Origin: Natronogracilivirga saccharolytica
GTDB lineage: Bacteria; Bacteroidota; Rhodothermia; Balneolales; Natronogracilivirgulaceae
Assembly (NCBI RefSeq): GCF_017921895.1
Contig: NZ_JAFIDN010000005.1
Coordinates: 1 to 64,000, forward strand
Length of the DNA: 64,000 nt
Reading direction: 5' to 3'
The notes under the pieces are model-generated. The model was not told where the DNA came from, did no database searches, and saw only the letters and a program-made list of their open reading frames with translations. The first letter of the stretch is position 1. Each line of letters starts with the position of its first letter. Of the stretch, positions 17,203 to 35,421 are shown in pieces. The translations under genes and the position numbers were made by a program.

Positions 17203-17661
17203 AAAGGCAATTTACACATTTTCAAGAATAACGAAAATTCAGAGCTGATAGTTTTGAACAGGGAAGAGTATAGCTCGAAGAATCGTGTGAAACTTCATAA
17301 TAATTCAGTGTAAAAGTTTTTTTTATAAGGTAAGGTCGAAATCCTAAAGCCCATAACTACGTATTAAATAGAATATAATATCCTGATTACATCGGCATGA
17401 CCAGAGCCCGCATTGGGCACGCGGATGGACCCGGGAGCAGCTTGCCAGAGCCACAGGATCCAGTCAATCCCGCATAGCAAAACCGGAAGCAGTAGATCCG
17501 GCCTGACAGGCTGTCAAACGCACATAATAGAGAACGCCGGTAGTGTAAGTCCGGGCAGTTTACCTGCTCTTCGATAGTACCGGGCAACCGGGACTTTCTG
17601 TCCGCACTGTCGTCCGCATTCCGGACGGATGCGGGACTTCACACCAAACCACGATCTCATT
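17203..17661. other. Intergenic region, no gene recognised
   Basis: About 460 bp between the divergent toxin-antitoxin pair and the cohesin-domain gene. The left 170 bp are AT-rich and probably hold the antitoxin promoter. The right part is GC-rich with several small hairpins (for example around 17575-17640) that do not match a riboswitch I know. Confidence 0.35.
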
Positions 17662-20743: not shown

Positions 20744-20786
20744 GAGAGTATGCCGGACCATTGCGTGTCCGGCTGCTCTCTTTAAA
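20744..20786. terminator. Bidirectional hairpin between convergent genes
   Basis: Stem GAGAG + GCCGGAC (20744-20758) pairs with GTCCGGC + CTCTC (20767-20780), with a small internal mismatch and an 8-base loop, followed by TTTAAAA. It lies between the cohesin gene and the histidine kinase gene, which converge here, and fits an intrinsic terminator. Confidence 0.7.
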
Positions 20787-22353
20787 ACCGGATATTCACT
20801 GTCAGGCCACCGCCATTGCTTTCAAAACTGATATCTCCCCGCAATTGCTGAACCAGTCCGTGAATGATCGTAGTGCCGAAAGAAACCGGATTATAAAGTT
20901 GATCCACATTATCAACTCCAACACCATCATCACTGATCTCGATCTCGTTTTTACCGTTAGCCCGCGAAAGCCGGACAAATATGGTTCCTTCCCCGTGGTT
21001 CCTGAAAGCGTGCCTGGCAGCGTTTGTGATCAGCTCATTAATCAGCAGAGTGCAGGGCACCGAGTGATTGAAATCCAGAATGATTTCCTCCAGATCCGTT
21101 TCGACCCTGATCCCCCTGGATTCCAGTCCGAACGAATTGGAAAGCAAGTCAACTATTCTGCTGATCAGCTTGGCGGCATTGATTTCCACAAAATCCGTCT
21201 GCTCATAGACGATTTCATGAACCAGCGCCATGGACCGGATGCGGTTTTCCGTGTCGCGAAAGATCGAACGGGCCTCTTCATTTGCAATATATTCAGACTG
21301 AAGCGAAAGCAGGCTCGAGATGATAGCCATATTGTTCTTTACCCGGTGATGGATTTCACTGAGGAGCACATCCTTTTCTCTGAGCGACCGCGCCAGTTTT
21401 TTCTGGGTTTCTTTCAGTTCGGTGATATTTCGTCCGATTCCGACAATTCCGATGATCTCTCCTTCCCGGTTGCGTATCGGTGATACTTTGGACTGGTATT
21501 TCACCATGCCGTCCGGGGCGGGTGTTTCCCATTCATAGACCACCACCTCGCCGGAGAGCGCCTTGCGATAGCATGTTTCGTACCACTGTCCCTCCTTTTC
21601 ACCAACGATGTCAGCGGCTCTTTTGCCAATAAAATCTTCCGGCTCCATGTTTATCCGTTTCATCCAGGTGCCATAGACACCCGTATGCCGCAAATCGGTG
21701 TCCATCGTAAAGATTACGTCATCCGAAGATTCGATGAGCAGCCGGAATTTCTCTTCACTCTGCTGCAGCTTGCCGACGTATTCCTTGCCGCGATGATGAT
21801 CATTAAGGACTTTACCAATGATGATGGTAATAAGCGGATAAATTACCACAAAACTGATCGCCACATTCTGAAACACATCGTCAGCGATGTTTTCTGGCAG
21901 AGCATGGACATAGAACGCCATCATAAGGTGCACCATCATGCTGTATACAAACAGTTGCGGCAGGGTTATCTGACCGTTATCGTTATTCTGTTTCACAACA
22001 TGGAACACCCAGCCCAGAACAAAAGCGGTCAGTGTTGTCATCATACCCATGATCACGCCGTCACCCCCGAGCCAGATGCGGAACAGGATCGTCATGATTA
22101 CGCTGATGGCACCGGTCAGTGGACCAAAAAATATGGTGGCAATTCCCACCACAATGGTGCGTCCGTCAAATATCACCCCCTCGACGAAGGTGAAGGGATA
22201 CGACATGCCCACTACGGCAATGGCCCCGAAAAGCACTCCCTGAGCCACCCGCCCTTTCCAAGATGCAGCATCAAACCGGTCGTTGAGCAGGTTGGAGACC
22301 AGCAGCAGGACACCAAGAAGTGAAAGATTGTAGATGATCTCCGGAACAATCAT
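20782..22353 (-). CDS. Sensor histidine kinase (5TM-LYT, PAS, HisKA_2/HWE type)
   Basis: A 523-residue protein. Residues 1-185 hold five to six membrane helices with features of 5TM receptor-LYT sensors (FVEGVIFDGRTIVVGIATIF). A PAS domain with PAC ending (about 205-325, IGIVGIGRNITELKETQ) follows. Near 335, LSEIHHRVKNNMAIISSLLS is the phospho-acceptor region of the HisKA_2 class. An HATPase_c domain (NELITNAARHAF, DDGVGV) ends the protein. The 9 codons upstream of ATG 22353 start with TTG and are less likely. No response regulator is adjacent, so its partner is unknown. The ligand of the membrane part is unknown. Confidence 0.9.
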   Translation of the reverse strand: MIVPEIIYNLSLLGVLLLVSNLLNDRFDAASWKGRVAQGVLFGAIAVVGMSYPFTFVEGVIFDGRTIVVGIATIFFGPLTGAISVIMTILFRIWLGGDGVIMGMMTTLTAFVLGWVFHVVKQNNDNGQITLPQLFVYSMMVHLMMAFYVHALPENIADDVFQNVAISFVVIYPLITIIIGKVLNDHHRGKEYVGKLQQSEEKFRLLIESSDDVIFTMDTDLRHTGVYGTWMKRINMEPEDFIGKRAADIVGEKEGQWYETCYRKALSGEVVVYEWETPAPDGMVKYQSKVSPIRNREGEIIGIVGIGRNITELKETQKKLARSLREKDVLLSEIHHRVKNNMAIISSLLSLQSEYIANEEARSIFRDTENRIRSMALVHEIVYEQTDFVEINAAKLISRIVDLLSNSFGLESRGIRVETDLEEIILDFNHSVPCTLLINELITNAARHAFRNHGEGTIFVRLSRANGKNEIEISDDGVGVDNVDQLYNPVSFGTTIIHGLVQQLRGDISFESNGGGLTVNIRF

Positions 22354-22495
22354 ATCCGTCAATGCCAAAAAATTTTGCAATTAATAACCGTCTGTACCGG
22401 CACGCTGCCATATTCATACCACTAATACAGGTGGGACAGCTCCGTTGACCATGCCGGTCAGATCATATACATCTGCAGGCCAGCCATACCCTCCG

Positions 22496-22656: not shown

Positions 22657-23637
22657 GTGAAAAAAGAACGCCCCGCATTCATCAAGGACAAGGTATCTCC
22701 CGTTTTTTACCGGATGTTCTACTGGTATTCACTTACCCTCTTCCGGCGCCGTTTCCGCAGGGTCTGGATTGACGATTCTGTGCATCCGCCGGGTGGTACA
22801 TCCGTGCTGTTTGTGGGCACGCACAACTCCTGGTGGGACGGGATGATTCCGCTGCTCATGAACGAGGCCTCTTTCGGACTGGATGCGCGTGCCATCATGG
22901 ATGAGCAGCAGCTGCGCCGGTATCCGTTCTTTCGTTATCTCGGTGTCTACTCCATCAACCGTGACTATCCGCTCAGAGCCATGAAAAGCCTTGAATATAC
23001 CGTACGGCTGCTCAACAACAGCACAGAAGAGCATCCTGTCGGTATCTGGGCCTATCCGGAAGGAAAACTGGTCAACCCGCACAAGGCCGTCACCCTGGAA
23101 AGCGGCCTGGCTTGGCTGTCACGTCATATTGACCCGGAAAAATGCGAAATCATACCGTTCACCTCGCATATGCATACGATGAGAGGTGACAAGCCTGAAC
23201 TTTTTATCAAGCTCGGCAACCCCATTGGTCCCAAAATTTACCGCTCGGGTCATGTACTTGCGCATGTCACCTATACTCTGGAGGAGCTGCGCAAATCATG
23301 CCGTGAAACAAGCGGAAACTTCGACGAGGACGGGTATCCGCAGGGCGGGTTCCGTCTGCTGCTCGGACGTGAGCCGAAAGCGCCCGAAGCACCGCTGCCG
23401 GATCCGGATGAGATGACCGGAGACGGGCAGGATGCCATAAAATCGGATGAAAGCGACAGTTCCGGGCAAAAAGAGACCACAACCGGCAGTGAAAGTGATG
23501 CCGCTACCGGCGAGAGCGGAGATAAGCGGCCGGAGCCGAAAGGAATGGACGATCCGTCACCAGCCGGCAGCGCTGCTGACAAGGCCGAGCCTTCCGGACT
23601 TGATGACAGCACCAAAGGTAATCAGGGTTCGCGGTAA
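22657..23637 (+). CDS. Lysophospholipid acyltransferase-family protein (PlsC-like)
   Basis: A 326-residue protein with the 1-acylglycerol-phosphate acyltransferase motifs HNSWWD (HxxxxD, about residue 55) and IWAYPEGKL (about 128). Residues 235-326 are a low-complexity, Ser/Gly/Asp/Glu-rich tail. The start codon is GTG, with GGAG 11 bases upstream. The gene converges with a CrtC-like gene whose stop lies 60 bp away. PlsC-like genes occur in carotenoid clusters of Bacteroidota, where they acylate a carotenoid or its sugar, so such a role is plausible; a phospholipid role is the alternative. Its stop codon lies in the first unit of the 19-20-bp tandem repeat. Confidence 0.85.
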   Translation: MKKERPAFIKDKVSPVFYRMFYWYSLTLFRRRFRRVWIDDSVHPPGGTSVLFVGTHNSWWDGMIPLLMNEASFGLDARAIMDEQQLRRYPFFRYLGVYSINRDYPLRAMKSLEYTVRLLNNSTEEHPVGIWAYPEGKLVNPHKAVTLESGLAWLSRHIDPEKCEIIPFTSHMHTMRGDKPELFIKLGNPIGPKIYRSGHVLAHVTYTLEELRKSCRETSGNFDEDGYPQGGFRLLLGREPKAPEAPLPDPDEMTGDGQDAIKSDESDSSGQKETTTGSESDAATGESGDKRPEPKGMDDPSPAGSAADKAEPSGLDDSTKGNQGSR

Positions 23638-23723
23638 TTCGCCAGGTCCGCAGTGATTCACCAGGTTCAGCGGTATTTCACAAGATCCGCGGTGATTCAC
23701 CAGGTCCAGCGGTACAGCCGCGG
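23628..23723. repeat. 19-20-bp tandem repeat x5 spanning two convergent gene ends
   Basis: Units start at 23628, 23647, 23666, 23686 and 23705; a good copy is TCCGCGGTGATTCACCAGG. The first unit holds the stop of the acyltransferase gene (23635-23637), and the fourth and fifth hold the last codons and stop (23697-23699) of the crtC-like gene. Units diverge by a few bases. Confidence 0.8.
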
Positions 23724-25022
23724 CGATTTCTGCACCCAGTGGGGCTTGCTGTCCACATACCGCAGCCTCATGTGCACCAGCGGCCAGAAAATCCGGCGGT
23801 GGATACGGCCCGGACGGATATATTCTCCGATGCCTGTTCCGCTGACTTTTTCACCAATGGACGGATGTGTCAGGTGCGCTTCGGTGACATAACGGCAGTA
23901 AAACGGCCCGGAATCGGATACCTTTTTGTGCCGAATGACCACACCGAGCTCCTTGTCCTGAAACCGAAGCTCGCGTCCCGGTCGCAGCAGAAATCCGTTG
24001 AAGCGCCGCCGTCTGATGTTTTTCAGGTCGAGCGTGTACAGCAGCCGCCGGTTGTCGGAGCTGATCAGCCAGGCCCGGTAATCGGCGCCTGATTTTTTGT
24101 TCATCACATAGTAGACCAGCGTCGCCTCCTCAAAATGGACCCGCCCCCAGTACCAGTCGCGGAAGCTCTGGCGCATTGGCTCGGTACCCAGATTGTGATC
24201 GTGATAACCGATGCCGTCAAAAATCATTTCGCGTGAGACAATGCCGTTTTTCAGCAGGTTCATCCGGCACTGCATCTTCGCCCTGGGAAAGACCAGGTTC
24301 CAGAGATGCGTTTCACCATCGGGTCCGGTACCGTCCCGGGCAATCTGATCTGCATCAGCCGCATTTGAGTTGCTCCTATTCGGTGATGACCGTCGTCCGC
24401 CGGATTTCTTCGCCGTTCCGAACATCCTCTCATTCGGGACCATCCCGGTGAACGTAATGATTCCCTTGAGCTCATCCCCCGAAGGCAGCCGTTCGTTGAT
24501 GCGCAGGTCATAACCGGAAAAATCTTCGCTTCCGTGCTTTTCACGGACATCGCGGCGAAGGGAATTGCCGCCGATGGTCACCTCCGGCTTATCTTCGGAA
24601 AAGGAGCACTGATCCGGCGGATATTCACTCAGGCTGTAAAAGATGGGCTCCCCCTTGTGGTAAACCGAAATGCTGATGGCGGGATGCTGCCCGGCCAGCG
24701 CACCGGCCGCCTCAGCTGCTTTATTTTCCGGTGCGTTCTCTGCTGTGTCGGCCAGGGTATTTCCTGCTGCACCGGCGTCCGTATTGCCGCCAGTCCCACT
24801 GTCCGGTCCATCCCCCTTCATTCCGGATCCGTCTCCGGATTTATGACGAAACCGGTCCGCCTCCCGGACATACCTCGTGGAAAACGGGCAGCCGTCATAG
24901 TAAATAATCACAATCTGGTACTCCCCGTCATCGGAAATGCCGTCAAAATACCACCACTCATAGCTGCCAGGGCGGGTTTTCGGATGCCGCGCATCCCGGT
25001 TGCTGTCGGATATCAGCTGCAT
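23697..25022 (-). CDS. crtC: CrtC-like carotenoid 1,2-hydratase
   Basis: A 441-residue protein with the CrtC / hydroxyneurosporene synthase signature near the N-terminus (GSYEWWYFDGISDDG) and later DHNLGTEPMRQSFRDWYWGR. The family hydrates the terminal double bond of acyclic carotenoids. Two hydrophilic inserts break the conserved fold: a Gly/Ala/Asn-rich run about residues 65-115 and a Ser/Asn-rich run about 215-245; neither is usual. I prefer ATG 25022; the frame extends to a TTG at 25064 that lies inside a strong hairpin. It converges with an acyltransferase gene, which supports a carotenoid modification role, but no phytoene synthase or desaturase is in the window. Confidence 0.8.
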   Translation of the reverse strand: MQLISDSNRDARHPKTRPGSYEWWYFDGISDDGEYQIVIIYYDGCPFSTRYVREADRFRHKSGDGSGMKGDGPDSGTGGNTDAGAAGNTLADTAENAPENKAAEAAGALAGQHPAISISVYHKGEPIFYSLSEYPPDQCSFSEDKPEVTIGGNSLRRDVREKHGSEDFSGYDLRINERLPSGDELKGIITFTGMVPNERMFGTAKKSGGRRSSPNRSNSNAADADQIARDGTGPDGETHLWNLVFPRAKMQCRMNLLKNGIVSREMIFDGIGYHDHNLGTEPMRQSFRDWYWGRVHFEEATLVYYVMNKKSGADYRAWLISSDNRRLLYTLDLKNIRRRRFNGFLLRPGRELRFQDKELGVVIRHKKVSDSGPFYCRYVTEAHLTHPSIGEKVSGTGIGEYIRPGRIHRRIFWPLVHMRLRYVDSKPHWVQKSPRLYRWTW

Positions 25023-25038
25023 CGCCGGAAAATAATTT

Positions 25039-25074
25039 CTTTGGGGTTTTGAGTCACTTTTCAAAACCCCAAAG
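25039..25074 (-). terminator. Perfect 14-bp hairpin between SGNH gene and crtC
   Basis: CTTTGGGGTTTTGA (25039-25052) and its exact complement TCAAAACCCCAAAG (25061-25074) enclose an 8-base loop. On the minus strand it lies 24 bases after the stop of the SGNH gene and 17 bases before the crtC ATG, followed by AAATTATTTT. It may end the SGNH transcript or act as a leader structure for crtC. Confidence 0.65.
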
Positions 25075-25097
25075 ATAATGAATCAGCAAGTGGCAAC

Positions 25098-26486
25098 CTA
25101 CGGGAATCGCACACCTTCGTAGGCACTCACGTTAACGGGCGAGACGGTAGCGCCATAGGTTTCATTGATCTCTTCGATCACCATGTTGGTCACCATCGCG
25201 GCACCGCGCGGAGTCAGATGTATGCCGTCGAGTGAAAACACGCCGCCCTCGACAAATTCGGTGGTCAGCAGGATGGCATCGTACACAACCCCTTCCTGCG
25301 CCGCGGCTTCCAGTTCCGGATTGACATCCACAAAAACGAGACCGAGCTGCGATGCCGCGCCTTCAAGAATGTCATTGAAGGTGTCGGTCGCCAGCCGGAC
25401 ATTGCCGGCCTGCTCCGCGGTCAGTGTATACTGATCGGGAATGGGCGTGCTGCTGCCCCAACCGGCGCCTTCCGGCAGCGGCTGAAGGGAATCCTGAGGA
25501 ACCGAAAGCAAAATATGCTCACCCTGCTCGGCCATCCGGAAACCGGCCGGAGCGTCGCCGTCCTCAATCACAAATCCGTTGGCTCCTTCCTGGAAATCAG
25601 GGATAAGCTGCTCGGGAACACCCTCGGCCTCATATCCGGCCCGGAGCATCTGCGCCTGCTCGGCGGTCAGCGCCAGTCCGTCCCAGGGAACCGTATTGAA
25701 AAACGGAATGGTGGTCACATCCGGGATGCTCAGCACCGCACCCAGCGCCCCTTCACCGGCCAGTGTGCCGGCCAGCGCTTCGATGCTGCCCTCAAACACA
25801 TTCACCGGGGTAATGTCGTTGTCGCTCACCTGCGCAGGATCGCCCATCTCCTCAAGGCCCTGACCGGTACCGCCTGCCGTGGCATAGCCCAGCACATCGT
25901 TGTTGCCGGCCCAGAGTGTGAAGAACGTCGGCTCAGCCATCAGTGCATCGCCGAGAACCGTCGCCATGGGATCACTTTTAAAGCGGGCAAAAAATGGGTT
26001 GTAATTGCCTTCACCGGCTTCCGTGTTGCCGTATCCCTCCGCAACCAGATGGAAACTGCGCGCCCCGGGGACACCGACGTTGTGAAACGGTCCGGTCTGC
26101 TGCCGGCTGAAAATATCCTGTCCGCTTTCTGCGGCCGGAGCCGGAGACAGCGTCGGAGAGCCGTCCGGGCCGGTCGTAACCTGCAACACGAGCCGTGCTT
26201 CACCTTCGGCATTGGATCCGACACCGGGATTGACCAGCGGCTGGAGGAACTCCCCTCCGCCCGCCTGCTGCATCTGTCCGGCCAGAATGTTGGGAAAGGA
26301 GTTGATCTGCCCTTCCCGGTGCAGCGCATTATCGGAATAACCGGCCGTCAGCGAGTTGCCCACGGCCACATAGCTGGAAAAATCGGCCTGACCCGAGTCT
26401 GCCGTACGTTCACTGATGCTCGGGTCGCACTGGCTGAGCACCAGCATCGCCATCAGAAAAGAGAAAAGATGTGTTAACCGCTTCAT
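25098..26486 (-). CDS. SGNH/GDSL-type hydrolase lipoprotein
   Basis: A 462-residue protein with a lipoprotein signal (MKRLTHLFSFLMAMLVLSQC). VAVGNSLTAGYSD (about 35-47) is the GDSL block with the nucleophile serine; LWAGNNDVLG (about 185) matches the GxND block; DGIHLTPRGAAM near the C-terminus gives the Asp-His pair. These enzymes are esterases or lipases; the substrate is unknown. The ATG at 26486 starts the lipoprotein signal; one at 26498 is also possible. It follows the FadL-like gene at 114 bp on the same strand, with a terminator-like hairpin between, so joint action on lipids is a reasonable but unproven idea. Confidence 0.87.
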   Translation of the reverse strand: MKRLTHLFSFLMAMLVLSQCDPSISERTADSGQADFSSYVAVGNSLTAGYSDNALHREGQINSFPNILAGQMQQAGGGEFLQPLVNPGVGSNAEGEARLVLQVTTGPDGSPTLSPAPAAESGQDIFSRQQTGPFHNVGVPGARSFHLVAEGYGNTEAGEGNYNPFFARFKSDPMATVLGDALMAEPTFFTLWAGNNDVLGYATAGGTGQGLEEMGDPAQVSDNDITPVNVFEGSIEALAGTLAGEGALGAVLSIPDVTTIPFFNTVPWDGLALTAEQAQMLRAGYEAEGVPEQLIPDFQEGANGFVIEDGDAPAGFRMAEQGEHILLSVPQDSLQPLPEGAGWGSSTPIPDQYTLTAEQAGNVRLATDTFNDILEGAASQLGLVFVDVNPELEAAAQEGVVYDAILLTTEFVEGGVFSLDGIHLTPRGAAMVTNMVIEEINETYGATVSPVNVSAYEGVRFP

Positions 26487-26577
26487 AATGGAATTCATTT
26501 GAAAGTTTAAAATGGTGGCTTGATCCGGTCGGTTGCTGAACCGGCCGTCGTCCGGCACATTGCCGGGCCGCATCCGG

Positions 26578-26601
26578 AAAAACACCGGTTCCGGGACCGG
26601 T
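26578..26601 (-). terminator. Intrinsic terminator after fadL-like gene
   Basis: On the minus strand ACCGGT-CCCGGA-ACCGGT is followed by GTTTTT, starting in the stop codon of the fadL-like gene. The 6-bp stem is short but GC-rich. Confidence 0.55.
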
Positions 26602-27869
26602 CAGAATTTGTGATACAGGGATATGCCCGGCAGCCAGGCCCGTGTCTTGAACTCGCCTACCGGCACGGTGCCGAAGGTGCCCGCATCGATTGTATCCTCC
26701 AGGGACTGCTCCCGGGGACTGGATGTAATAAACAGAAGCGAGGCATTGACGCCCAGATCGGGAGTAAAGGCGTAGCCCACTCCTGCCGACATTCCGATCC
26801 GGTCGAGATCCGGTGTCTCGGGAGTTATGAAGCCCTCATCCACCGGGGACGGGTCAAAGTATCCGCCGAGACGCAGCTGCAGCGCTTCGGTCGCATCAAA
26901 TTCGCCGCCCAGACGGAAGATCCAGCGGTCATTGAAATTCCGGGGCTCGGTAATGTTCTGCAGCGCAGGTGTATTTTCCTCGAAAGCAAAATCCAGGCTC
27001 TCATAGGCACTCCAGAACGTCAGGTTGGCATCGATACCCACGCGCAGACGCTCGGTCGGGGTCAGCCCCACGCCGATGTTAAGCACGGCCGGCAGCGGCA
27101 GGGAAGCATCAAACCGGTTGCCTTCCGGAAAATTGCCCTGCAGCGACTGCGGAATGGTAAAATCGGCATCTCCGCCTTCCACTTCCATTTCAATCTCCGA
27201 GCGGTAGGAAACACCAAGCGAAACCAGGTCGGTCACATCCGCATAAATACCGGCGTTGAAGCCGATCGCGGTTGTCGATCCGTCAAGCTCGACAATTCCG
27301 GTATGTCCGTCCATGTCGCTGATGGGCAGATCGCGCTGCAGATTCACCATCCCGATGGCATAAATGAATCCGGCACCGACACCGATGTTGTCGGTAATCG
27401 CATAGCTGAGCGTGGGCTGCAGGTAAATGGATGTCAGGGAAATCTCGCGCAGCAGCGTGCGGTACTTCCACCCCTCTTCCCACTTCAGAGCGTTTCCGTA
27501 GGGAGTGTACACGGCAAAACCCGCCTTCAGGTTGTCCACCGGCGTGTCATAGCTGGCATAGATGCTGAACGGCGTTCGCACCCTGGAGTCGGTGTTGGCC
27601 TGATAGGTGGACGGCGCCGGCGCCCGGTAGGCGGTGCTGATGAACGTGGCGTTGGAACCCGCCATGACGGCATTTCCGTCCAGTGCGGAGAGTCCGCCCG
27701 GATTCATGGCTATGGTTGCAATGTCGAGCGGCATGCCGGTACCGACATGTCCCATCCCGATCTGTCTCTGTCCCAGCAGGTTGAGCTGATATCCGCCTGC
27801 CATTGCTGCACTTGCTGCAAGACATACGGCCAGCAGGCCTGCCGTCAAAACGGTAACAATATTTTTCAT
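26601..27869 (-). CDS. Outer-membrane transporter, OmpP1/FadL/TodX family
   Basis: A 422-residue protein with signal peptide (cleavage after about residue 24, AAMAGGYQLN), then GQRQIGMGHVGTGMP and IATIAMNPGGLSAL, the N-terminal hatch signature of FadL porins. Alternating beta-strand patterns fill the rest, and it ends in aromatic F (LYHKF), as outer-membrane barrels do. FadL proteins take up long-chain fatty acids or other hydrophobic compounds. The ATG at 27869 begins the signal peptide; the upstream in-frame residues to 27956 are untypical. It is probably transcribed ahead of the SGNH gene. Confidence 0.92.
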   Translation of the reverse strand: MKNIVTVLTAGLLAVCLAASAAMAGGYQLNLLGQRQIGMGHVGTGMPLDIATIAMNPGGLSALDGNAVMAGSNATFISTAYRAPAPSTYQANTDSRVRTPFSIYASYDTPVDNLKAGFAVYTPYGNALKWEEGWKYRTLLREISLTSIYLQPTLSYAITDNIGVGAGFIYAIGMVNLQRDLPISDMDGHTGIVELDGSTTAIGFNAGIYADVTDLVSLGVSYRSEIEMEVEGGDADFTIPQSLQGNFPEGNRFDASLPLPAVLNIGVGLTPTERLRVGIDANLTFWSAYESLDFAFEENTPALQNITEPRNFNDRWIFRLGGEFDATEALQLRLGGYFDPSPVDEGFITPETPDLDRIGMSAGVGYAFTPDLGVNASLLFITSSPREQSLEDTIDAGTFGTVPVGEFKTRAWLPGISLYHKF

Positions 27870-28084
27870 GAGTACTATCCGATTAGTGGCTTTTCGGTTG
27901 TCAATAATTCCTGATGAAAGCACGCATAACACTCCCGGATGCGCTGCACGAGGCATCGGGCAACAGGAGTATCAGCGCCGGCATAAACCCCATTTGTTCG
28001 TCAGTCCGCCCCATGCGGACCGTCCGGCTGCTTCAACAGACTGACCTAATTTAAAATTTTGAATCGGATATGCCAATTTTTGTT

Positions 28085-28783
28085 TCATGATGCTTCCGGA
28101 TGTTTCCGGACGATCTGCAGCCCGTCGCGCACCGGCAGCAGCACATTTTCGACCCGCGCATCAACCGAAATGAGCCGGTTCATCCGGTCGACGGCCTTAC
28201 CCTTGCGGTCGTCCGCCTCGCCGGCCGCATCGGCCCAGGCCTTGCCGCCCCAGAATGCATTGTCGATGACCATGACCCCGCCGGGCCGCAGCACCGGCAT
28301 CAGAACATCGTAATAGACCGGATAGCTTTCCTTGTCGGCATCGAGGAAAATGAGATCGGGTTTCGGTCCGGACTCCAGGATTTTCTGTTCGCGGATGGCA
28401 TCCAGCGCCATGCCGGTCAGCAGCTCAATGCGCGGCCCGGACGGCTGCTCTTTGTGAAACCGGTCGAAAAACCGCCGGGCGATGGCGGAATACTTGTCGT
28501 TGCCCTCGCAGGTGATGATGCGTCCGCCCGATGTCATTCCCGATGCGATCTGAAGCGTACCGTAGCCGGTGAAGGTGCCGATTTCCAGGACAAACCGGGC
28601 GGCTGTGAGCCCGGCCATCATCCGTAGCAGCGCGCCGACAAGCGGACCGCTGAGCATATCGTCATACCGGAGTTCGGCGGCCGTCGCCCGGCGCACATCC
28701 CGCAGCAGTGGTGATTCGGGCGATGAGTTTTTCACGGCATAGCTTTCTGCCTGTTGCAGGAAGGTTCGGGAGTCGTCTGGCAT
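28085..28783 (-). CDS. SAM-dependent O-methyltransferase (caffeoyl-CoA OMT-like)
   Basis: A 232-residue class I methyltransferase. VLEIGTFTGYGTLQIA (about 66-81) is the SAM-binding loop, DLIFLDADKESYPVYYD (about 145) the metal/substrate region and GGVMVIDNAFWGG the family's DN motif. The substrate is unknown; such enzymes methylate catechols and similar hydroxyl groups using a divalent metal. It lies 87 bp downstream of the STN gene on the same strand and could be the last gene of that sigma/anti-sigma group. Confidence 0.9.
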   Translation of the reverse strand: MPDDSRTFLQQAESYAVKNSSPESPLLRDVRRATAAELRYDDMLSGPLVGALLRMMAGLTAARFVLEIGTFTGYGTLQIASGMTSGGRIITCEGNDKYSAIARRFFDRFHKEQPSGPRIELLTGMALDAIREQKILESGPKPDLIFLDADKESYPVYYDVLMPVLRPGGVMVIDNAFWGGKAWADAAGEADDRKGKAVDRMNRLISVDARVENVLLPVRDGLQIVRKHPEAS

Positions 28784-28870
28784 GATGGAATTTTTGTTAT
28801 TTATATTGGCTTTTGAATGTGCTGCTGCTCAGGTGCCCTGCCGGGCAACCGGTGCTGTCCGGAAACAAAA

Positions 28871-29356
28871 TCACTCCGGCAACGACCGGCGAAGAATGAT
28901 TTCACTCAACGGTACAGGTTCGTCGAATGCAGCCGAAAAGGGTAACACAAGAGGCTGCATAGCTTCCGACCGCAGTGCATCCACCCTGCTGCCGGCCCCG
29001 GCCGGAACCTCCGCCAGCGGCCGGATATGCTGGCGCAGCGAATGCCTGATCACATAAATACCCGTCCGGATGCGCCTTGCCTCGAGCCCTTCCGGTTCCA
29101 GCAGCTCATCAAGTATATCGCGGAGCGGCTTCTCCCGGAAAACCGCCCGCACCATCACCCCGTCGGTCAGCTCCGATTCATAAAGAAAATCCGTTCCGGT
29201 TTTTTCGGATATGAGGTACAGCGCACGCTCGAGCGGCTCATCGTGAAATTCGAATGAGTAGACGGGATCACCGGATTGCATCACCGGCAGCATGGTCATA
29301 ACAGCAATGAGAAGTGCGCACATGGCACGGCAAGGTAATGAATGGTTAACTGACAC
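28871..29356 (-). CDS. Stand-alone STN-domain protein
   Basis: A 161-residue secreted protein. After a signal peptide (CALLIAVMTMLPVMQSG), residues 32-105 form a secretin/TonB short N-terminal domain (FHDEPLERALYLISEKTGTD, then RDILDELLEPEGLEARRI). Normally this domain heads a TonB-dependent receptor whose STN contacts a FecR anti-sigma factor. Here a stop comes 55 residues after the domain and no plug or barrel follows in any frame before the next gene. It lies just downstream of the fecR-like and sigma genes. The start is GTG 29356; ATG 29323 is the alternative. It may be a remnant or a dedicated signalling subunit. Confidence 0.8.
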   Translation of the reverse strand: MSVNHSLPCRAMCALLIAVMTMLPVMQSGDPVYSFEFHDEPLERALYLISEKTGTDFLYESELTDGVMVRAVFREKPLRDILDELLEPEGLEARRIRTGIYVIRHSLRQHIRPLAEVPAGAGSRVDALRSEAMQPLVLPFSAAFDEPVPLSEIILRRSLPE

Positions 29357-29400
29357 CGGCTGGACCGGCTGACCGGCTCACCGGCTTCAATATCACACTG

Positions 29401-30384
29401 TCAATATAACCGAATCCCGTCATCCGACCAACTGTAGCGGCAGTCGGTAACATGGCAGATGGAGGTGACAATCGACTCAAGATCGTCGGGTGACGGCAGA
29501 TAAAGCGTCAGACGGCGCTCCGACAGCGCTTCGTCTTCTATCTCGATTTCCGTATTGTAGCGCCGCTCCAGTTCGCCGGCCACTTCGCTCAGGGACAGTC
29601 CGGAGAAGTAGAAACCCTTGTCACGCCAGGCCAGCGCACGGCTGGTGTCTGCCGGCTCGGGCTTGTGCGGCGCATCCGCCTCGCTGTCCACCACGCTCGA
29701 GTGTCCGGGCTCGAGCTGCACCGCCTCTGCAGGCTGCATCAGTGAAGCCAGGCTGACCTCACCGTCGATGAGCGTCAGTTCGGTGCGCATTTGCGGACCG
29801 GAATCCCATGCGCGGACATTGAACCGGGTGCCTGTGACGGCGATACTGGCGTTGTGCGTGGTGACGGTAAAACTTTTTTCATCCGGCTGAACCTCGAAAT
29901 AGGCCTCTCCGTGCAGATTCAGCTCACGATGGCCGTTCCATGGCCTGCGATACCAGCTGATCGAAGATCCGCTGTTGAGTTCCACCTGCACTCCCTCTTC
30001 CCACTGCCAGCTTGTAAAGCTGCCGCGAGGCGCCTCGACGGTAACCGGCACAAAAAGGTACCAGTAGAAGAATCCTGCCAGCAGCAGTGCCGCCACTGCT
30101 GCGACGGCGGAGTAAAGCGATACGAGCGTCCCCGTCGGCCTTTTCTTGTCCGGCCTGCCGGCCCGTCCGACAGCTCCGGTTTTCTTTAGAGAAGCATCGG
30201 AGCGAATTCGTTTCTGCAGCCGGCGCCACTCTCTCTCTGCATCGGGGTATTCGGACGCATTGCCGGGACGTGTTACACGTTCGGGTCTGTTCCGGCCGGA
30301 CACCTCCCAGATGCGCGCAACATGCTCACGATCCGCATCACGGAACTTCTCAAAAATACTTGTATCCGGCTTCTTCCTGCTCAT
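29401..30384 (-). CDS. FecR-family anti-sigma factor
   Basis: A 327-residue protein. The N-terminal cytoplasmic part (1-85) precedes one membrane helix (about 100-120, SAVAAVAALLLAGFFYWYLF), then the periplasmic FecR domain (about 122-225, EAPRGSFTSWQWEEGVQVEL and HGEAYFEVQPDEKSFTVTTH) and a C-terminal DUF4974 domain (about 255-325, FSGLSLSEVAGELERRYNTE). The protein would hold the sigma factor at 30544 and release it on a signal from an STN-bearing partner. The frame extends upstream to a TTG at 30462, but ATG 30384 is more likely. It lies between the sigma and STN genes. Confidence 0.92.
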   Translation of the reverse strand: MSRKKPDTSIFEKFRDADREHVARIWEVSGRNRPERVTRPGNASEYPDAEREWRRLQKRIRSDASLKKTGAVGRAGRPDKKRPTGTLVSLYSAVAAVAALLLAGFFYWYLFVPVTVEAPRGSFTSWQWEEGVQVELNSGSSISWYRRPWNGHRELNLHGEAYFEVQPDEKSFTVTTHNASIAVTGTRFNVRAWDSGPQMRTELTLIDGEVSLASLMQPAEAVQLEPGHSSVVDSEADAPHKPEPADTSRALAWRDKGFYFSGLSLSEVAGELERRYNTEIEIEDEALSERRLTLYLPSPDDLESIVTSICHVTDCRYSWSDDGIRLY

Positions 30385-30543
30385 ATTATCTTTTTTCTGC
30401 GATTTCTGCTGTTTTCTGCTGCCTGACAGCCCGTTTTCCGGCCATCCGGCAATCCGGCTCAATCTCTGTGTTGTATCATTTTCTATCTGAAATACGGCCG
30501 GACAGCCGCATGTGACTACCCGAACCAGCCATGTTAAGCCATT

Positions 30544-31110
30544 TTAATCTTTCTTTTCCCACTCCTTCAGCCGGTCGCGCAGAGTACCCAGGGCGCTGAC
30601 AATGTGATTGTTTACGGTTCGCGGGGCACAATCCATCACTTTTGCGATTTCATGGTGGTCAAGTCCTTCGAACCGGCTGAGCTCGAACGCTTCACGCTGC
30701 CGCACCGGCAGCGATTCAATCCATTCGGTGATTTTTTTCATGAGTTCGCCGGATTCACTGCCGGCGTCATCCTCACCGGCCGGGATCAGCTCCTCAGCCG
30801 GAACATCGGCCGGACCCAGTTCATCGAGCCGCACCGACCGATGCATGCGAAGATAGTTGATGCCACGGTTGCGGGTCATCCGGTAGAGCAGCGCCTTGAG
30901 CGAGCGGTTTTCATCGACCCGGTCACGGATTTCCCACAAATGGGCGTAAACATCCTGAAGAATATCGGCCGCTGCATCCGGATCCCTGACAATGCTGTCC
31001 GCATAACGGATCAGCTGGTCATAGGAATCTGTAAAAATCTCACGAAACGCCGATTCATCAGAATTGCGCAGTCTTAGGGCCCATTCGTGATACTGCGTAG
31101 ATGCGGTCAT
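30544..31110 (-). CDS. ECF-type RNA polymerase sigma factor (FecI-like)
   Basis: A 188-residue sigma-70 family protein. Region 2 (about 20-90) contains AADILQDVYAHLWEIRDRVD, and region 4 (about 125-180) contains LPVRQREAFELSRFEGLDHH and APRTVNNHIVSALGTLRDRL. It matches the Bacteroidota sigma factors that pair with FecR. It is the first gene of sigma, fecR, STN, O-methyltransferase on the minus strand. Its regulon likely includes its own operon. Confidence 0.93.
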   Translation of the reverse strand: MTASTQYHEWALRLRNSDESAFREIFTDSYDQLIRYADSIVRDPDAAADILQDVYAHLWEIRDRVDENRSLKALLYRMTRNRGINYLRMHRSVRLDELGPADVPAEELIPAGEDDAGSESGELMKKITEWIESLPVRQREAFELSRFEGLDHHEIAKVMDCAPRTVNNHIVSALGTLRDRLKEWEKKD

Positions 31111-31378
31111 CCGTGCCCCTTTGATTCCTTTTGTTGATTACCGGATATGCTGTTGATTTCCGTAAATATTGCTTTCCGTCGTAACCTATGCAATAGCTCC
31201 AAATTTTCAAAGCACGGGTATGCGAATGGATGCTATTTCATGTATCTTTTGCGTTTCATTTTACTGACGGGTTCCGGATGCTGCTGAAGATGCATTGCAA
31301 CCTGAAGAATACCCTTTTACGGAAATCGTCCATGCAGCAATCGTCGGCCCGCAACCAAAATCGCAATCACCCCATTAT

Positions 31379-32047
31379 ATGCCGCACAAGATCATTCTGG
31401 CCTCCGCCAGTCCGCGCCGCAGTACCCTGCTCCGGCAAATCGGAATCCGTTTCGAGGTCATTCCTGCCGAAACGGACGAGCATATCCGGCCGGGTTACCA
31501 CCCCTCCGAAACCGTTGAGCAGCTGGCCCTGGAAAAGGCCGGGGATGTTGCGCGCCGGCATTCCGGCGCCCTGGTCATCGGTGCGGATACTGTCGTGGTG
31601 CTGGACAATGAGATTCTGGGCAAACCCGCAAATCCGGAAGAGGCGGCATCCATGCTGCGCACGCTGAGCGGACGAACCCATCAGGTCTACACCGGTGTGG
31701 CGCTTGTGCTTGCCGGGCAGGATGCAAACGATGGTTCACCCGCAGCATCCGCCCCGGAACATCCGCATTCGGTCACATTCCATGAGCGGACCGATGTCAC
31801 CTTCGGCGGGCTCTCCGATGACGAGATCCGGGCCTACATCAGCACCGGCAGTCCGATGGACAAAGCCGGTTCCTACGGCATCCAGGATGACCTCGGTGCC
31901 CTGTTTGTCCGCAAAATCGACGGCGATTATTACAATGTGGTCGGATTTCCGCTCTACCGTTTTCACCGCGAGGTCAATAAGCTGGCACCCGGCATCGTTA
32001 ATCCTTTCGAACGGCACCAACGGAAAAATCTGTTACGAAACACATGA
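31379..32047 (+). CDS. maf: Maf-family nucleoside triphosphate pyrophosphatase
   Basis: A 222-residue protein with the Maf signature at its start (KIILASASPRRSTLLRQIGI), GADTVVVLDNEILGKP (about 70) and GSYGIQDDLG (about 180). Maf proteins hydrolyse dTTP/UTP or modified nucleotides and influence septum formation in some bacteria. The ATG at 31379 matches the family N-terminus; the longer frame from 31295 is not supported. An unusual hydrophilic loop, DANDGSPAASAPEHPHS (about 118-134), is inserted before a conserved strand. It is first in a three-gene operon: the next gene overlaps by four bases (ATGA). Confidence 0.93.
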   Translation: MPHKIILASASPRRSTLLRQIGIRFEVIPAETDEHIRPGYHPSETVEQLALEKAGDVARRHSGALVIGADTVVVLDNEILGKPANPEEAASMLRTLSGRTHQVYTGVALVLAGQDANDGSPAASAPEHPHSVTFHERTDVTFGGLSDDEIRAYISTGSPMDKAGSYGIQDDLGALFVRKIDGDYYNVVGFPLYRFHREVNKLAPGIVNPFERHQRKNLLRNT

Positions 32048-34047
32048 ATACTTCGCGGATACGCCTGATAACCGGCATGATGCTTGCCCTGCTTGTACTG
32101 TTGCCCCCGTTGCTGCCTGACGAAACCGCTGCGGCCCAGTCGCGAAATGACTTCAATCTGGGCAACCAGCTGCTCCGCGACGGTGAATTCGAAGAAGCAT
32201 ACGAAGTGTTCCGGAAACTGATGGAGGAGAATCCCCGCTCCTTTGCCGTTTACGACCGCGCGGTTTCGGCCCTGATCAACCTCAAGCGCTACGAAGACGC
32301 CATCGCGATTACCGAAGATCGGCTCGAAAATTTTGCCACGGATGTCAACACCATGGTCCGGCTGGGAGAAATTTATCACATCCGGGGCGATAAAGATGAA
32401 GCCCGCGACATCTGGTACAATGTGCTTGACCGGCACTCCGACAACAACAATGCCTTCCGCAGGATTGCCGAAACGATGAACGACCACCGCCAGTACCGCG
32501 AGGCAATCGAGGTGTACAAAAAAGCCAGGGAGCAGTTCAACGACCCCGGCATGTTCGGTTTCGACATCGCGGACAACTACTTGGCGGTCAATGAATTTGA
32601 AAGCGCCATCGAAGAATATCTCGACATCCTCGCCGACGATGAGCGTCAGAAGAACCGAATCCAGCGCCAGCTGCTCAACTATGATGAACAGCAGCTCTAC
32701 GATACGGCCATCATGCTTGTTGAGGAGCGGCTTGACCAGCTTCAGGCCGGCAGCAGCCGCGACCTTGCCTACCGCGATTTTCTGGTCTGGCTGAACATGG
32801 AGCGCGGGTTTTACCGCCGTGCCCTGGCCGCGGCGCGCACGCTTGAGCGATACAGCGACAACGAGCGCCATGCCGTGTTCCGGGTTGGCCGGCAGCTTCG
32901 CAGTCATGACGAGTTTGAGCTGGCCGCAGATGCATTTTCCTACTATCAGGACCTTGAACGCCATCCGCTTAAAGCGCGCAGTCTCGAAGAACTGTCGCGG
33001 GCCTATCAGGACTGGGCTGCCCATCTGATAGACAACAATCTGGATTTCGGCGGCGGAGCCGATTCCCTGTACCGGAAAGCATTCCAGTCCGTCGAACGGC
33101 TCACCGAGCAGTTTCCGCAATATGACCGCCGGATGCAGACCCTGGTGATTCAGTCCGAGCTGGCCCTGGACCATCTCAAGGAGCCCGAACTCGCACGCTC
33201 CTACTTCGACAAGATGGAAAACGCGGTCAACGACACATCCGATGAGGCTCAAATGCACTACATCGAAGGCCGCCTGCTGCTCTATGAAGGTGATTTCCAG
33301 ATGGCACGCGTCTCGCTGACCCGAAGCAACCGCATCTCGGGCAGCGGCGATACTGCCGAGAAAAGCCGCTACTATCTGGGCCTGGGCGACTTTTACAACG
33401 GCGAATTTTCCTATTCGCGGATGCAGCTTCGATCCCTGGAGCGCGAGAACCACTCCTACTTTGCCAACAATGCGCTGCAGCTGCGTTATCTGATCCAGAA
33501 TGCGCACGATGAGGACGGAGAAAACCGAAGCCTGAAGCGCTATGCCAAAGCGCGTTACCTGTACGACACCGGGCGGTACAACGAATCAGCCGAACTGCTG
33601 GCTCCCATGCTGGAAGAGGCCGCCGAACATCCGTTGCAAAACGAGTCATCACTGCTTCTTGCCCGCTCGCTGCGCCAGATCCATCCCGAAATTGCCTTCC
33701 GGGTGATCGACCGGCACATGCGTCGTCCATCGGTTGCGCGGAATGCGGGTGAGCGGATGCTCTGGGAGCGCGCCCGGCTGGCCGAACTGGTGTTCGTGAT
33801 GCAGCAGCGCGCAACTGGGGATGAATCGGGCTTCGAATGGCAGGCACCGGCCGGCTTGCTCGACACCTCCATGTTTTCCGGCGAACAGCTCAGCGGGGCG
33901 CTTTCCGGTGAAACATCCCTGCTCACCCTTGCCGGGGTTGTCGATTACTACGAAGAGCTGCTGATCAGATATCCGGACGGATATTACTCCGACCTCACCC
34001 GTGACCGGATCAGAAAACTGGAACGTCGTGAACATCGTGAACTTTAA
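32044..34047 (+). CDS. Secreted tetratricopeptide-repeat protein
   Basis: A 667-residue protein with signal peptide (TGMMLALLVLLPPLLPDETA) and many TPR-like helical pairs from about residue 35 to 480 (for example LLRDGEFEEAYEVFRKLMEE). The C-terminal third is also helical. It has no catalytic motif. Its ATG overlaps the maf stop, and the next gene begins 12 bases after its end, so the three are co-transcribed. It probably acts as a periplasmic scaffold; the partner is not evident, but the neighbour at 34060 is a candidate. Confidence 0.85.
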   Translation: MNTSRIRLITGMMLALLVLLPPLLPDETAAAQSRNDFNLGNQLLRDGEFEEAYEVFRKLMEENPRSFAVYDRAVSALINLKRYEDAIAITEDRLENFATDVNTMVRLGEIYHIRGDKDEARDIWYNVLDRHSDNNNAFRRIAETMNDHRQYREAIEVYKKAREQFNDPGMFGFDIADNYLAVNEFESAIEEYLDILADDERQKNRIQRQLLNYDEQQLYDTAIMLVEERLDQLQAGSSRDLAYRDFLVWLNMERGFYRRALAAARTLERYSDNERHAVFRVGRQLRSHDEFELAADAFSYYQDLERHPLKARSLEELSRAYQDWAAHLIDNNLDFGGGADSLYRKAFQSVERLTEQFPQYDRRMQTLVIQSELALDHLKEPELARSYFDKMENAVNDTSDEAQMHYIEGRLLLYEGDFQMARVSLTRSNRISGSGDTAEKSRYYLGLGDFYNGEFSYSRMQLRSLERENHSYFANNALQLRYLIQNAHDEDGENRSLKRYAKARYLYDTGRYNESAELLAPMLEEAAEHPLQNESSLLLARSLRQIHPEIAFRVIDRHMRRPSVARNAGERMLWERARLAELVFVMQQRATGDESGFEWQAPAGLLDTSMFSGEQLSGALSGETSLLTLAGVVDYYEELLIRYPDGYYSDLTRDRIRKLERREHREL

Positions 34048-34059
34048 TAAGCAATACCC

Positions 34060-35421
34060 ATGACTCCCAAAAAAATTACCGGAATGATTCCCTTTGTGTT
34101 GCTGCTGGCCATGGCACTGACCGCAGCGGTACCGGCGCTGTCGCCTCAGGCAGAATCGCGAGCGCAGTCCGGCTATGTGCTGATTCCCATGGATGACGGC
34201 CAGCGCAATCACCTCAAGGCATACGGGATCATGTTTCAGCACCTCGAAGACGGTCACACCGGCAAATGGCTGCTCAACTACCGCGGCGGGAGTTTCCTTA
34301 CACCCCGGACCGAGGAAATTGTGCGCCGCAGCCGGGTTCGCGGGGTTTCGGTCGAAGAAATTTCATCAGCACGTGCAGAGCAGATCATTGAGGAAGTGGA
34401 ACGTCCGAATGTGAACATGGCGGTCATGGAGCTTGAAAAAGCCCCGAAAATCGCGGTTTACACGCCCGATCATGCCCTGCCGTGGGACGATGCGGTGACC
34501 CTGGCGCTGACCTACGCCGAAGTTCCCTACGAGACCATTTACAACGAAGAAGTACTTGCCGGCGAACTGGATGAGTACGACTGGCTGCACCTGCATCACG
34601 AGGATTTCACCGGTCAGCACGGCAAATTCTGGGCCGCTTACCGCAACGAACCGTGGTACATCCGCCAGGTCCGCGATCTGGAAGAGATGGCAGCCGACCT
34701 GGGCTACGACAAGGTCCCGGACATGAAAAAGTCGGTGGTATGGACCATCCGTGAATACATCGAGCAGGGCGGATTTCTCTTTGCGATGTGCTCGGGAACC
34801 GATACCTTCGACATCGCCCTGGCAGCAATGGAGGTGGATATCGTACCGACCGAGCTGGACGGCGACCCTGCCGATCCGGATGCCAACGAGCGCCTCGATT
34901 TTTCGAACACACTTGCGTTCAAGGATTTCGAAGTCACCCTGGACCCCGCCGAATACCGCCACGGCAACATCGACATTCTGGATGTGCAGCAGCGCATGGC
35001 CGAGGTGGATGAAGAGATGGACTACTTTACGCTTTTCAATTTTTCAGCCAAGTGGGACCCCGTTCCTTCGATGCTCACGCAGAACCATGTCAGCAGCATC
35101 AGGGGTTTTTACGGGCAGACGACGGCTTTCCGCAAGGAGACCGTCAAAAACAACGTGGTGGTCATGGCTGAAACCCCGGGAAGGGATGAAGCCAAGTATA
35201 TCCATGGAAACCTGGGCGAGGGCTTTTTCACCTTTTACGGCGGACACGATCCCGAAGACTACACCCATCGCGTCGGTGACCCGCCGACTGAACTGGACCT
35301 GTTCCCGAACAGCCCCGGTTACCGTCTGATTCTCAACAACATATTGTTCCCGGCAGCTCAGCAGAAAGAGATGCAGACCATGCGGCTGATGGAGCATTTC
35401 GACGGATTTGTGCAGCGCTGA
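34060..35421 (+). CDS. Secreted class I glutamine-amidotransferase-like protein of unknown role
   Basis: A 453-residue protein with signal peptide (residues 1-33). Conserved features are YVLIPMDDGQRNHLKAYGIM near the start, an alpha/beta domain from about 130, GGFLFAMCSGTDTFDIAL (a cysteine in a nucleophile-elbow-like position, about 245) and GEGFFTFYGGHDPEDYTH near the end. Relatives in Bacteroidota are often labelled asparagine synthetase B, but neither an N-terminal Cys-glutaminase nor the ATP-pyrophosphatase motif is present, so that name seems wrong. It is third in the maf-TPR operon. Its stop lies in a 16-bp duplicated unit. Confidence 0.75.
   Translation: MTPKKITGMIPFVLLLAMALTAAVPALSPQAESRAQSGYVLIPMDDGQRNHLKAYGIMFQHLEDGHTGKWLLNYRGGSFLTPRTEEIVRRSRVRGVSVEEISSARAEQIIEEVERPNVNMAVMELEKAPKIAVYTPDHALPWDDAVTLALTYAEVPYETIYNEEVLAGELDEYDWLHLHHEDFTGQHGKFWAAYRNEPWYIRQVRDLEEMAADLGYDKVPDMKKSVVWTIREYIEQGGFLFAMCSGTDTFDIALAAMEVDIVPTELDGDPADPDANERLDFSNTLAFKDFEVTLDPAEYRHGNIDILDVQQRMAEVDEEMDYFTLFNFSAKWDPVPSMLTQNHVSSIRGFYGQTTAFRKETVKNNVVVMAETPGRDEAKYIHGNLGEGFFTFYGGHDPEDYTHRVGDPPTELDLFPNSPGYRLILNNILFPAAQQKEMQTMRLMEHFDGFVQR

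Follow-up and report, generated by a model that had tools for sequence, protein, structure and literature searches.

The ECF sigma/FecR locus of Natronogracilivirga saccharolytica analysed here is likely to be a complete cell-surface-signalling module that works without a receptor, in which a free STN protein would bind and stabilise FecR, by analogy with the Fox and Pup systems. The exported-looking STN protein is made separately and is kept with the sigma factor and FecR across the family. Because it is a separate, conserved protein, it is probably functional, not a decayed remnant.

Organization of the locus

In the window (the whole stretch of 64,000 nucleotides that was analysed, C5:1-64000) the genes lie in line on the minus strand. 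The ECF sigma factor (31110-30544, 188 aa) has the Pfam domains Sigma70_r2 and Sigma70_r4_2 and matches NCBIfam TIGR02985, Bacteroidetes-type family 1 (130.1 bits against a cut-off of 126.4). It is followed by a FecR anti-sigma factor with a FecR_C domain (30384-29401, 327 aa; Pfam 52.5 and 42.3 bits) and, after a gap of 44 bases, by the stand-alone STN protein (29356-28871, 161 aa), identified by Pfam and by its AlphaFold fold. As in FecI/FecR systems, the ECF sigma gene stands next to a gene for a FecR-type membrane anti-sigma factor and an STN-domain partner is encoded alongside both; the plug-barrel TonB-dependent transducer of such systems was found neither at this locus nor at those 11 short STN genes of relatives whose stop lies within a contig. 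The 161-aa protein is STN only, with neither the plug nor the β-barrel of a TonB-dependent transducer. A Pfam Plug search of the whole genome returns 31 matches (29 over the cut-off), none of them in the window; since the search does find plug domains elsewhere in the genome, the lack of a receptor cannot be put down to poor detection. The two other FecR_C loci of the genome (C5:214846 and C1:552558) each adjoin a long STN-bearing frame (1150 aa and 959 aa), and two of the 31 plug matches sit in these frames. The original prediction of a sigma/FecR row with a small separate STN protein, lacking plug and barrel, is borne out.

The O-methyltransferase gene (Pfam Methyltransf_3; 28783-28085, minus strand) starts 87 bases after the STN stop. 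It had been placed within 28871-31110 and taken as the final gene, but it lies outside that interval and is followed on the same strand by a FadL-type outer-membrane transporter (27956-26601, identified by Pfam and by gene order in relatives, where it is a conserved neighbour), a GDSL esterase and a gene with a weak match to CrtC (carotenoid 1,2-hydratase; 39.9 bits, far below the cut-off of 400). The order O-methyltransferase, FadL, GDSL esterase, CrtC-like gene is kept in relatives.

A scan of 26400-31500 for sigma-70-type promoters gave one site against 3.3 expected, terminator-like sites in the same region number 10 against 5.1 expected, and Rfam has no match at its gathering threshold in 25000-33000. 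A AAAAATTCGTAT block, possibly a promoter or operator, lies ~40-50 bases upstream of the sigma start in 10 of 13 loci (L037, L039, L040, L042-L046, L116 and L121; it is absent from the window, L047 and L115). The FecR-STN gap of seven of the 12 loci examined (L037, L039, L040, L042-L045) contains a CTAAATT block and measures, by the starts used here, 106-472 bases. Elsewhere in the window, 17629-20607 encodes a 992-aa protein with a secretion-system C-terminal sorting tail, 20782-22380 a histidine kinase (5TM-LYT/PAS/HisKA_2) and 34060-35421 a conserved 453-aa protein of unknown kind (~83-87% identity in the relatives examined, no Pfam match).

Structure of the STN protein

The STN protein consists of a signal peptide (~1-27, assigned by eye), the STN fold (~31-105), a linker and a C-terminal peptide (~147-160). 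STN is its sole Pfam domain (residues 56-104, profile positions 2-50 of 52); the match is marginal, with 28.2 bits as a protein against a cut-off of 28.4 and 30.1 bits in the genome search, and the STN proteins of relatives tested in Pfam also score weakly (15.6 and 18.7 bits against 28.4). Although the Pfam score is marginal, the fold is supported by the AlphaFold model [13 sequences; mean pLDDT 78.2, pTM 0.54], in which the block pLDDT is 94-97 at residues 31-100 and 84 at 101-110, with a low-confidence linker and a weak helix (150-158) after the domain.

Foldseek with this model gives four matches at E ≤ 0.001: FoxA, two PupB chains (from the PupR complex) and one secretin N0 domain. In VIA-align 2 the top rank goes to the FoxA signalling domain (Z 11.8, rmsd 1.6, 77 aligned), followed by PupB from the PupR complex (Z 11.5, rmsd 1.8, 81 aligned) and then by secretin N0 domains (Z ~10) and phage baseplate domains (Z 8-10). 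Since secretin and phage baseplate domains have the same fold, the fold alone is not proof of signalling. Fold comparison was chosen because a sequence profile of the STN protein was uninformative against the sequences of solved structures, with no match at E 0.1; relaxing the cut-off to 10 brought up FecA and PupA (E 0.1-0.39) amid unrelated rows.

Distribution in relatives

The STN protein finds a match in 73 of 146 relatives. Of the family's 19 other genomes, 12 have a short STN frame (125-252 aa) as their best match; with the window this makes 13 of 20 genomes in five genera. Eleven of these 12 genes stop inside a contig and one (G016) is cut by a contig end. Ten loci extend far enough to show what directly precedes the short STN gene; in all of them it is FecR, and in nine the sigma gene precedes FecR. 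An O-methyltransferase follows in 10 of the 12 (not in G003; in G016 the contig ends), FadL is visible in eight, and the full run from sigma through FecR, STN, O-methyltransferase and FadL to the GDSL esterase is present in five relatives (L037, L039, L042, L043 and L045). Sigma orthologues (57-64% identical) occur in 13 other family genomes, nine of them in line with FecR and a short STN gene and four on contigs that end after or inside FecR, as in G004 and G013, where the contig ends just after or inside it. Among the family's 20 genomes, no module was found in G001, G005, G006 and G007, which are drafts (67-98% complete); G007 lacks it at the syntenic site.

STN matches outside the family, among the 146 relatives, lie in frames of at least 752 aa except in G075, G111 and G122. 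The short frames of these three and that of G008 (C172) were rejected as stand-alone cases, since each of the four is truncated by the end of its contig. When 395 genomes of the phylum were searched with a profile and no more than eight candidates per genome were scored, 36 gave matches; among the matches listed, the window's genome is the only family member and its own frame the only stand-alone one, the others being 832-1153 aa long with the exception of the contig-cut G075. A scan of a collection of 84,980 species genomes with the STN alignment, which depends on short peptide patterns being matched exactly and is not exhaustive, returned 12 loci, the same 12 as in the relatives already counted: 11 from 'Balneolales bacterium' isolates named CSSed and one from the 'Balneolaceae bacterium' DLM2.Bin66, names that we take to denote soda-lake sediments and mats.

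A second barrel-less STN-like protein (202 aa, L117:2555-3163) is present in G009, where it comes after a sigma-FecR pair and before an opposite-strand gene; it has no Pfam match and is labelled STN on the basis of a 23% match (E 4.6e-5). In G003 (L047) the module lies near a gene that resembles by eye a lycopene cyclase and converges on a pair resembling, also by eye, another sigma/anti-sigma.

Conservation and selection

An alignment of the 13 stand-alone STN proteins, one of them cut short, has 19 invariant columns, and the last STN hairpin (consensus GLEARRIRTG) is among their most conserved parts; the receptors of the order that were read have LDYxxLSSGT at this position. The STN domain is under purifying selection, the linker hardly and the C-terminal peptide partly. 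Mean pN/pS is 0.27 in the STN domain, 0.83 in the signal-peptide part, 0.84 in the linker and 0.40 in the tail [28 pairs of eight loci (L036-L040, L042, L043 and L045); the window, the divergent L041, L046 and L047 and the cut-short L044 were left out], and the four closest pairs have an STN-domain dN/dS of ~0.09-0.21.

The tail consensus, near PLREIIxQIVxP, is clear in nine of the 12 intact proteins, partial in two (L041 and L046) and absent in L047. Its dN/dS is uneven, at ~0.95 (near neutral) for L037/L038, 0.48 for L037/L039 and 0.20 for L037/L040. The STN stop overlaps the O-methyltransferase start by four bases in eight of the 11 loci that show both, though not in the window, and the last tail codons may be constrained for this reason; against this, the third bases of the tail differ among loci, and L046 keeps the end INDIVLP without an overlap.

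The FecR anti-sigma factor

FecR has N-terminal helices, a membrane helix (~85-111), the FecR (β) domain and a C-terminal STN-like domain. Its AlphaFold model (mean pLDDT 76.2, pTM 0.53) matches only two structures at E ≤ 0.001: the putative anti-sigma factor BDI_1681 (4m0h) and the periplasmic domain of PupR (6ovk_R). In a tree of 38 FecR proteins the 11 linked to a stand-alone STN gene and three from contig ends form one starred group of 14 (96/98), and 22 of the 23 receptor-linked proteins form another (96/96). The FecR of G009 adjoins the receptor-linked group (87/77), and its 202-aa neighbour may be an independent case because this FecR falls outside the stand-alone clade. The 23rd receptor-linked protein, L049 from the window's own genome, has a very long branch at the arbitrary root. 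By their sequences, the FecRs paired with a stand-alone STN protein are one clade, separate from the receptor-linked FecRs. Two of the contig-end proteins, L120 and L121, come from genomes (G018 and G012) in which the short STN gene opens another contig, and are probably the same module split across contigs.

The STN-like C-terminal domain contains Cys310-X4-Cys315 (last helix and strand). The pair is present in 10 of the 11 stand-alone-linked and two of the three contig-end FecRs; in the receptor-linked FecRs the second Cys occurs in none of 23 and the first, by our own count, in 17. The stand-alone-linked FecR that lacks the pair is that of L047, the locus without STN tail and without methyltransferase. 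The sequence pattern makes a disulfide or a redox input possible.

The O-methyltransferase and FadL neighbours

The O-methyltransferase is a separable neighbour of the module, which argues against the earlier view of it as part of the unit. It is found in 94 of the 128 genomes of the order, and 12 of its neighbourhoods outside module loci (L081-L092) contain no match to sigma, FecR or STN (in one, L082 of G003, only ~300 bases of sequence lie on the upstream side); as these 12 carry no module, the methyltransferase-STN coupling is a local arrangement. In G003 the module is on a different contig from the O-methyltransferase and FadL, and in G007 Maf, the O-methyltransferase and FadL adjoin without a module; the ten further neighbourhoods also lack one. 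In each of the 12 neighbourhoods the acyltransferase (22657-23637) or the CrtC-like gene (23697-25064) of the window, or both, has a relative. On these counts the switch was judged not to require the O-methyltransferase, and the case for FadL as an obligate partner is weakened by G003 and G007.

Alternative explanations

The original prediction had offered a cleanly lost receptor as one explanation. In the remnant reading, an STN-CarboxypepD-plug-barrel transducer would have been truncated and the STN piece would be decaying. STN matches outside the family do sit in receptor-length or contig-cut frames, which makes an ancient receptor origin plausible, and the barrel-less protein of G009 may be a second, independent truncation. 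The same architecture in 13 genomes, the strong purifying selection in the STN domain and the single clade of stand-alone-linked FecRs nevertheless make a decaying remnant improbable. An intact receptor sharing the STN sequence, which would have marked the gene as a remnant, was found in none of the 146 relatives and none of the 395 phylum genomes (no more than eight candidates scored in each of the latter), where the long frames are distant receptors. A very old receptor truncation may still be the ultimate origin of the STN gene. The other explanation then offered, a free periplasmic signal subunit, gains sequence-based support from the orthologues in 13 of 20 genomes, the selection on the STN domain and the FecR clade.

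Shortening of a receptor by an assembly error or frameshift has next to no probability: the relatives' genomes are mostly fragmented drafts, and contig ends cut four other short frames as well as the STN frame of G016, but 12 of the 13 stand-alone genes have their stop inside a contig, a methyltransferase follows in 10 relatives, and the relatives' assemblies carry different isolate names. A split transducer, in which the STN protein couples FecR to an outer-membrane partner (the downstream FadL-type channel or an STN-less TonB receptor), is somewhat less improbable than a remnant, though still unlikely. The whole run from sigma to the GDSL esterase in five relatives would fit it, as would the finding here of only two of the genome's 31 plug matches within STN-bearing frames; it is opposed by the separate contigs of G003, by the module-free Maf-O-methyltransferase-FadL arrangement of G007 and by the lack of a plug or barrel gene directly after the module.

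Proposed mechanism

In the receptor-free module that we favour, the free STN protein would dock on the periplasmic part of FecR and, if the Fox and Pup systems are a guide, keep FecR folded and shielded from C-terminal-processing proteases, so that sigma is held off. A signal that removes, binds or degrades the STN protein would then allow periplasmic and intramembrane proteases to cut FecR and release sigma. The input would not pass through TonB and a barrel but through the periplasm or envelope, where the hydrophobic C-terminal peptide of the STN protein may receive it. On the simplest reading the free STN protein would be a FecR cap from the outset, a state to which FoxA is proposed to come only once cleaved. 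Peptidases that could take the Prc/CtpA and RseP parts are encoded in the genome (three S41 and six M50 matches in four frames), so FecR could be processed. The opposite sign, with the STN protein as activator, would fit the older E. coli Fec mutants as retold in the accessible text of PMC11637429, where weaker FecA-FecR contact lowers sigma activity.

A more specific and speculative version, to which we give a low probability, is TonB-independent signalling in which the STN protein is a removable FecR cap and its C-terminal peptide an address read by an S41 protease or envelope factor; loss of the cap, not a transported ligand, would switch sigma on, and the clade-specific Cys-X4-Cys pair of FecR could add a redox input. 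If the receptor-free reading is true, FecR switches can operate uncoupled from outer-membrane uptake.

Comparison with known systems

The closest fold match is to the FoxI-FoxR-FoxA system of Pseudomonas aeruginosa, but the Fox signalling domain is part of a full TonB-dependent receptor (accessible text of PMC11637429), whereas the STN protein here is made free. The same text reports that without signal the periplasmic signalling domain binds and stabilises FoxR and that the overproduced domain blocks sigma activity; its authors propose cleavage of the domain from FoxA, and the role of STN, activating FecR or protecting it from proteolysis, is described as disputed. A free STN protein kept by selection without receptor or plug would offer a direct test of this dispute. 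In the PupR-PupB system of Pseudomonas capeferrum the solved complex pairs counterparts of both proteins, PupR resembling FecR in fold and the PupB signalling domain resembling the STN protein, and the periplasmic domain of PupR is unstable without that of PupB (accessible part of PMC7186176); PupB, however, has the plug and barrel that the STN protein lacks. The STN-CarboxypepD receptors of the same order (L122 and L125) share the gene order sigma-FecR-STN and have homologous FecRs, but their frames are 931 and 1038 aa long, the hairpin reads LDYxxLSSGT instead of GLEARRIRTG, and FecRs of this type are without the second Cys.

According to the part of PMC7186176 available, the STN domains found in SMART, in more than 8,000 proteins, are all N-terminal to other domains. 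In the literature covered, which is partial and leaves out most subscription papers, we found no barrel-less STN case besides VreA, none in Balneolales and nothing for 'Balneol' with FecR and sigma factor; the accessible text of PMC9249621 does not mention VreA.

VreA of the VreA-VreI-VreR (PUMA3) system of P. aeruginosa is, in the accessible text of PMC2729926, a barrel-less 'receptor' with a signal sequence and STN domain encoded beside an ECF sigma factor and a FecR-like regulator; it is described there as mostly soluble, partly membrane-associated and probably periplasmic. The STN protein likewise has a signal sequence (by eye) and STN without a barrel, and would be a soluble periplasmic protein. 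It differs in that VreA has a TolA/TonB-like C-terminal domain of ~106 residues (same text), whereas the ~56 residues after STN here have no Pfam match and are modelled as a low-confidence linker and one short helix. The gene order also differs, vreA appearing to form an operon with vreI and vreR a separate unit (same text), whereas here sigma, FecR and STN are in line. Barrel-less signalling itself is known from VreA; the present locus is a smaller variant, and as such new.
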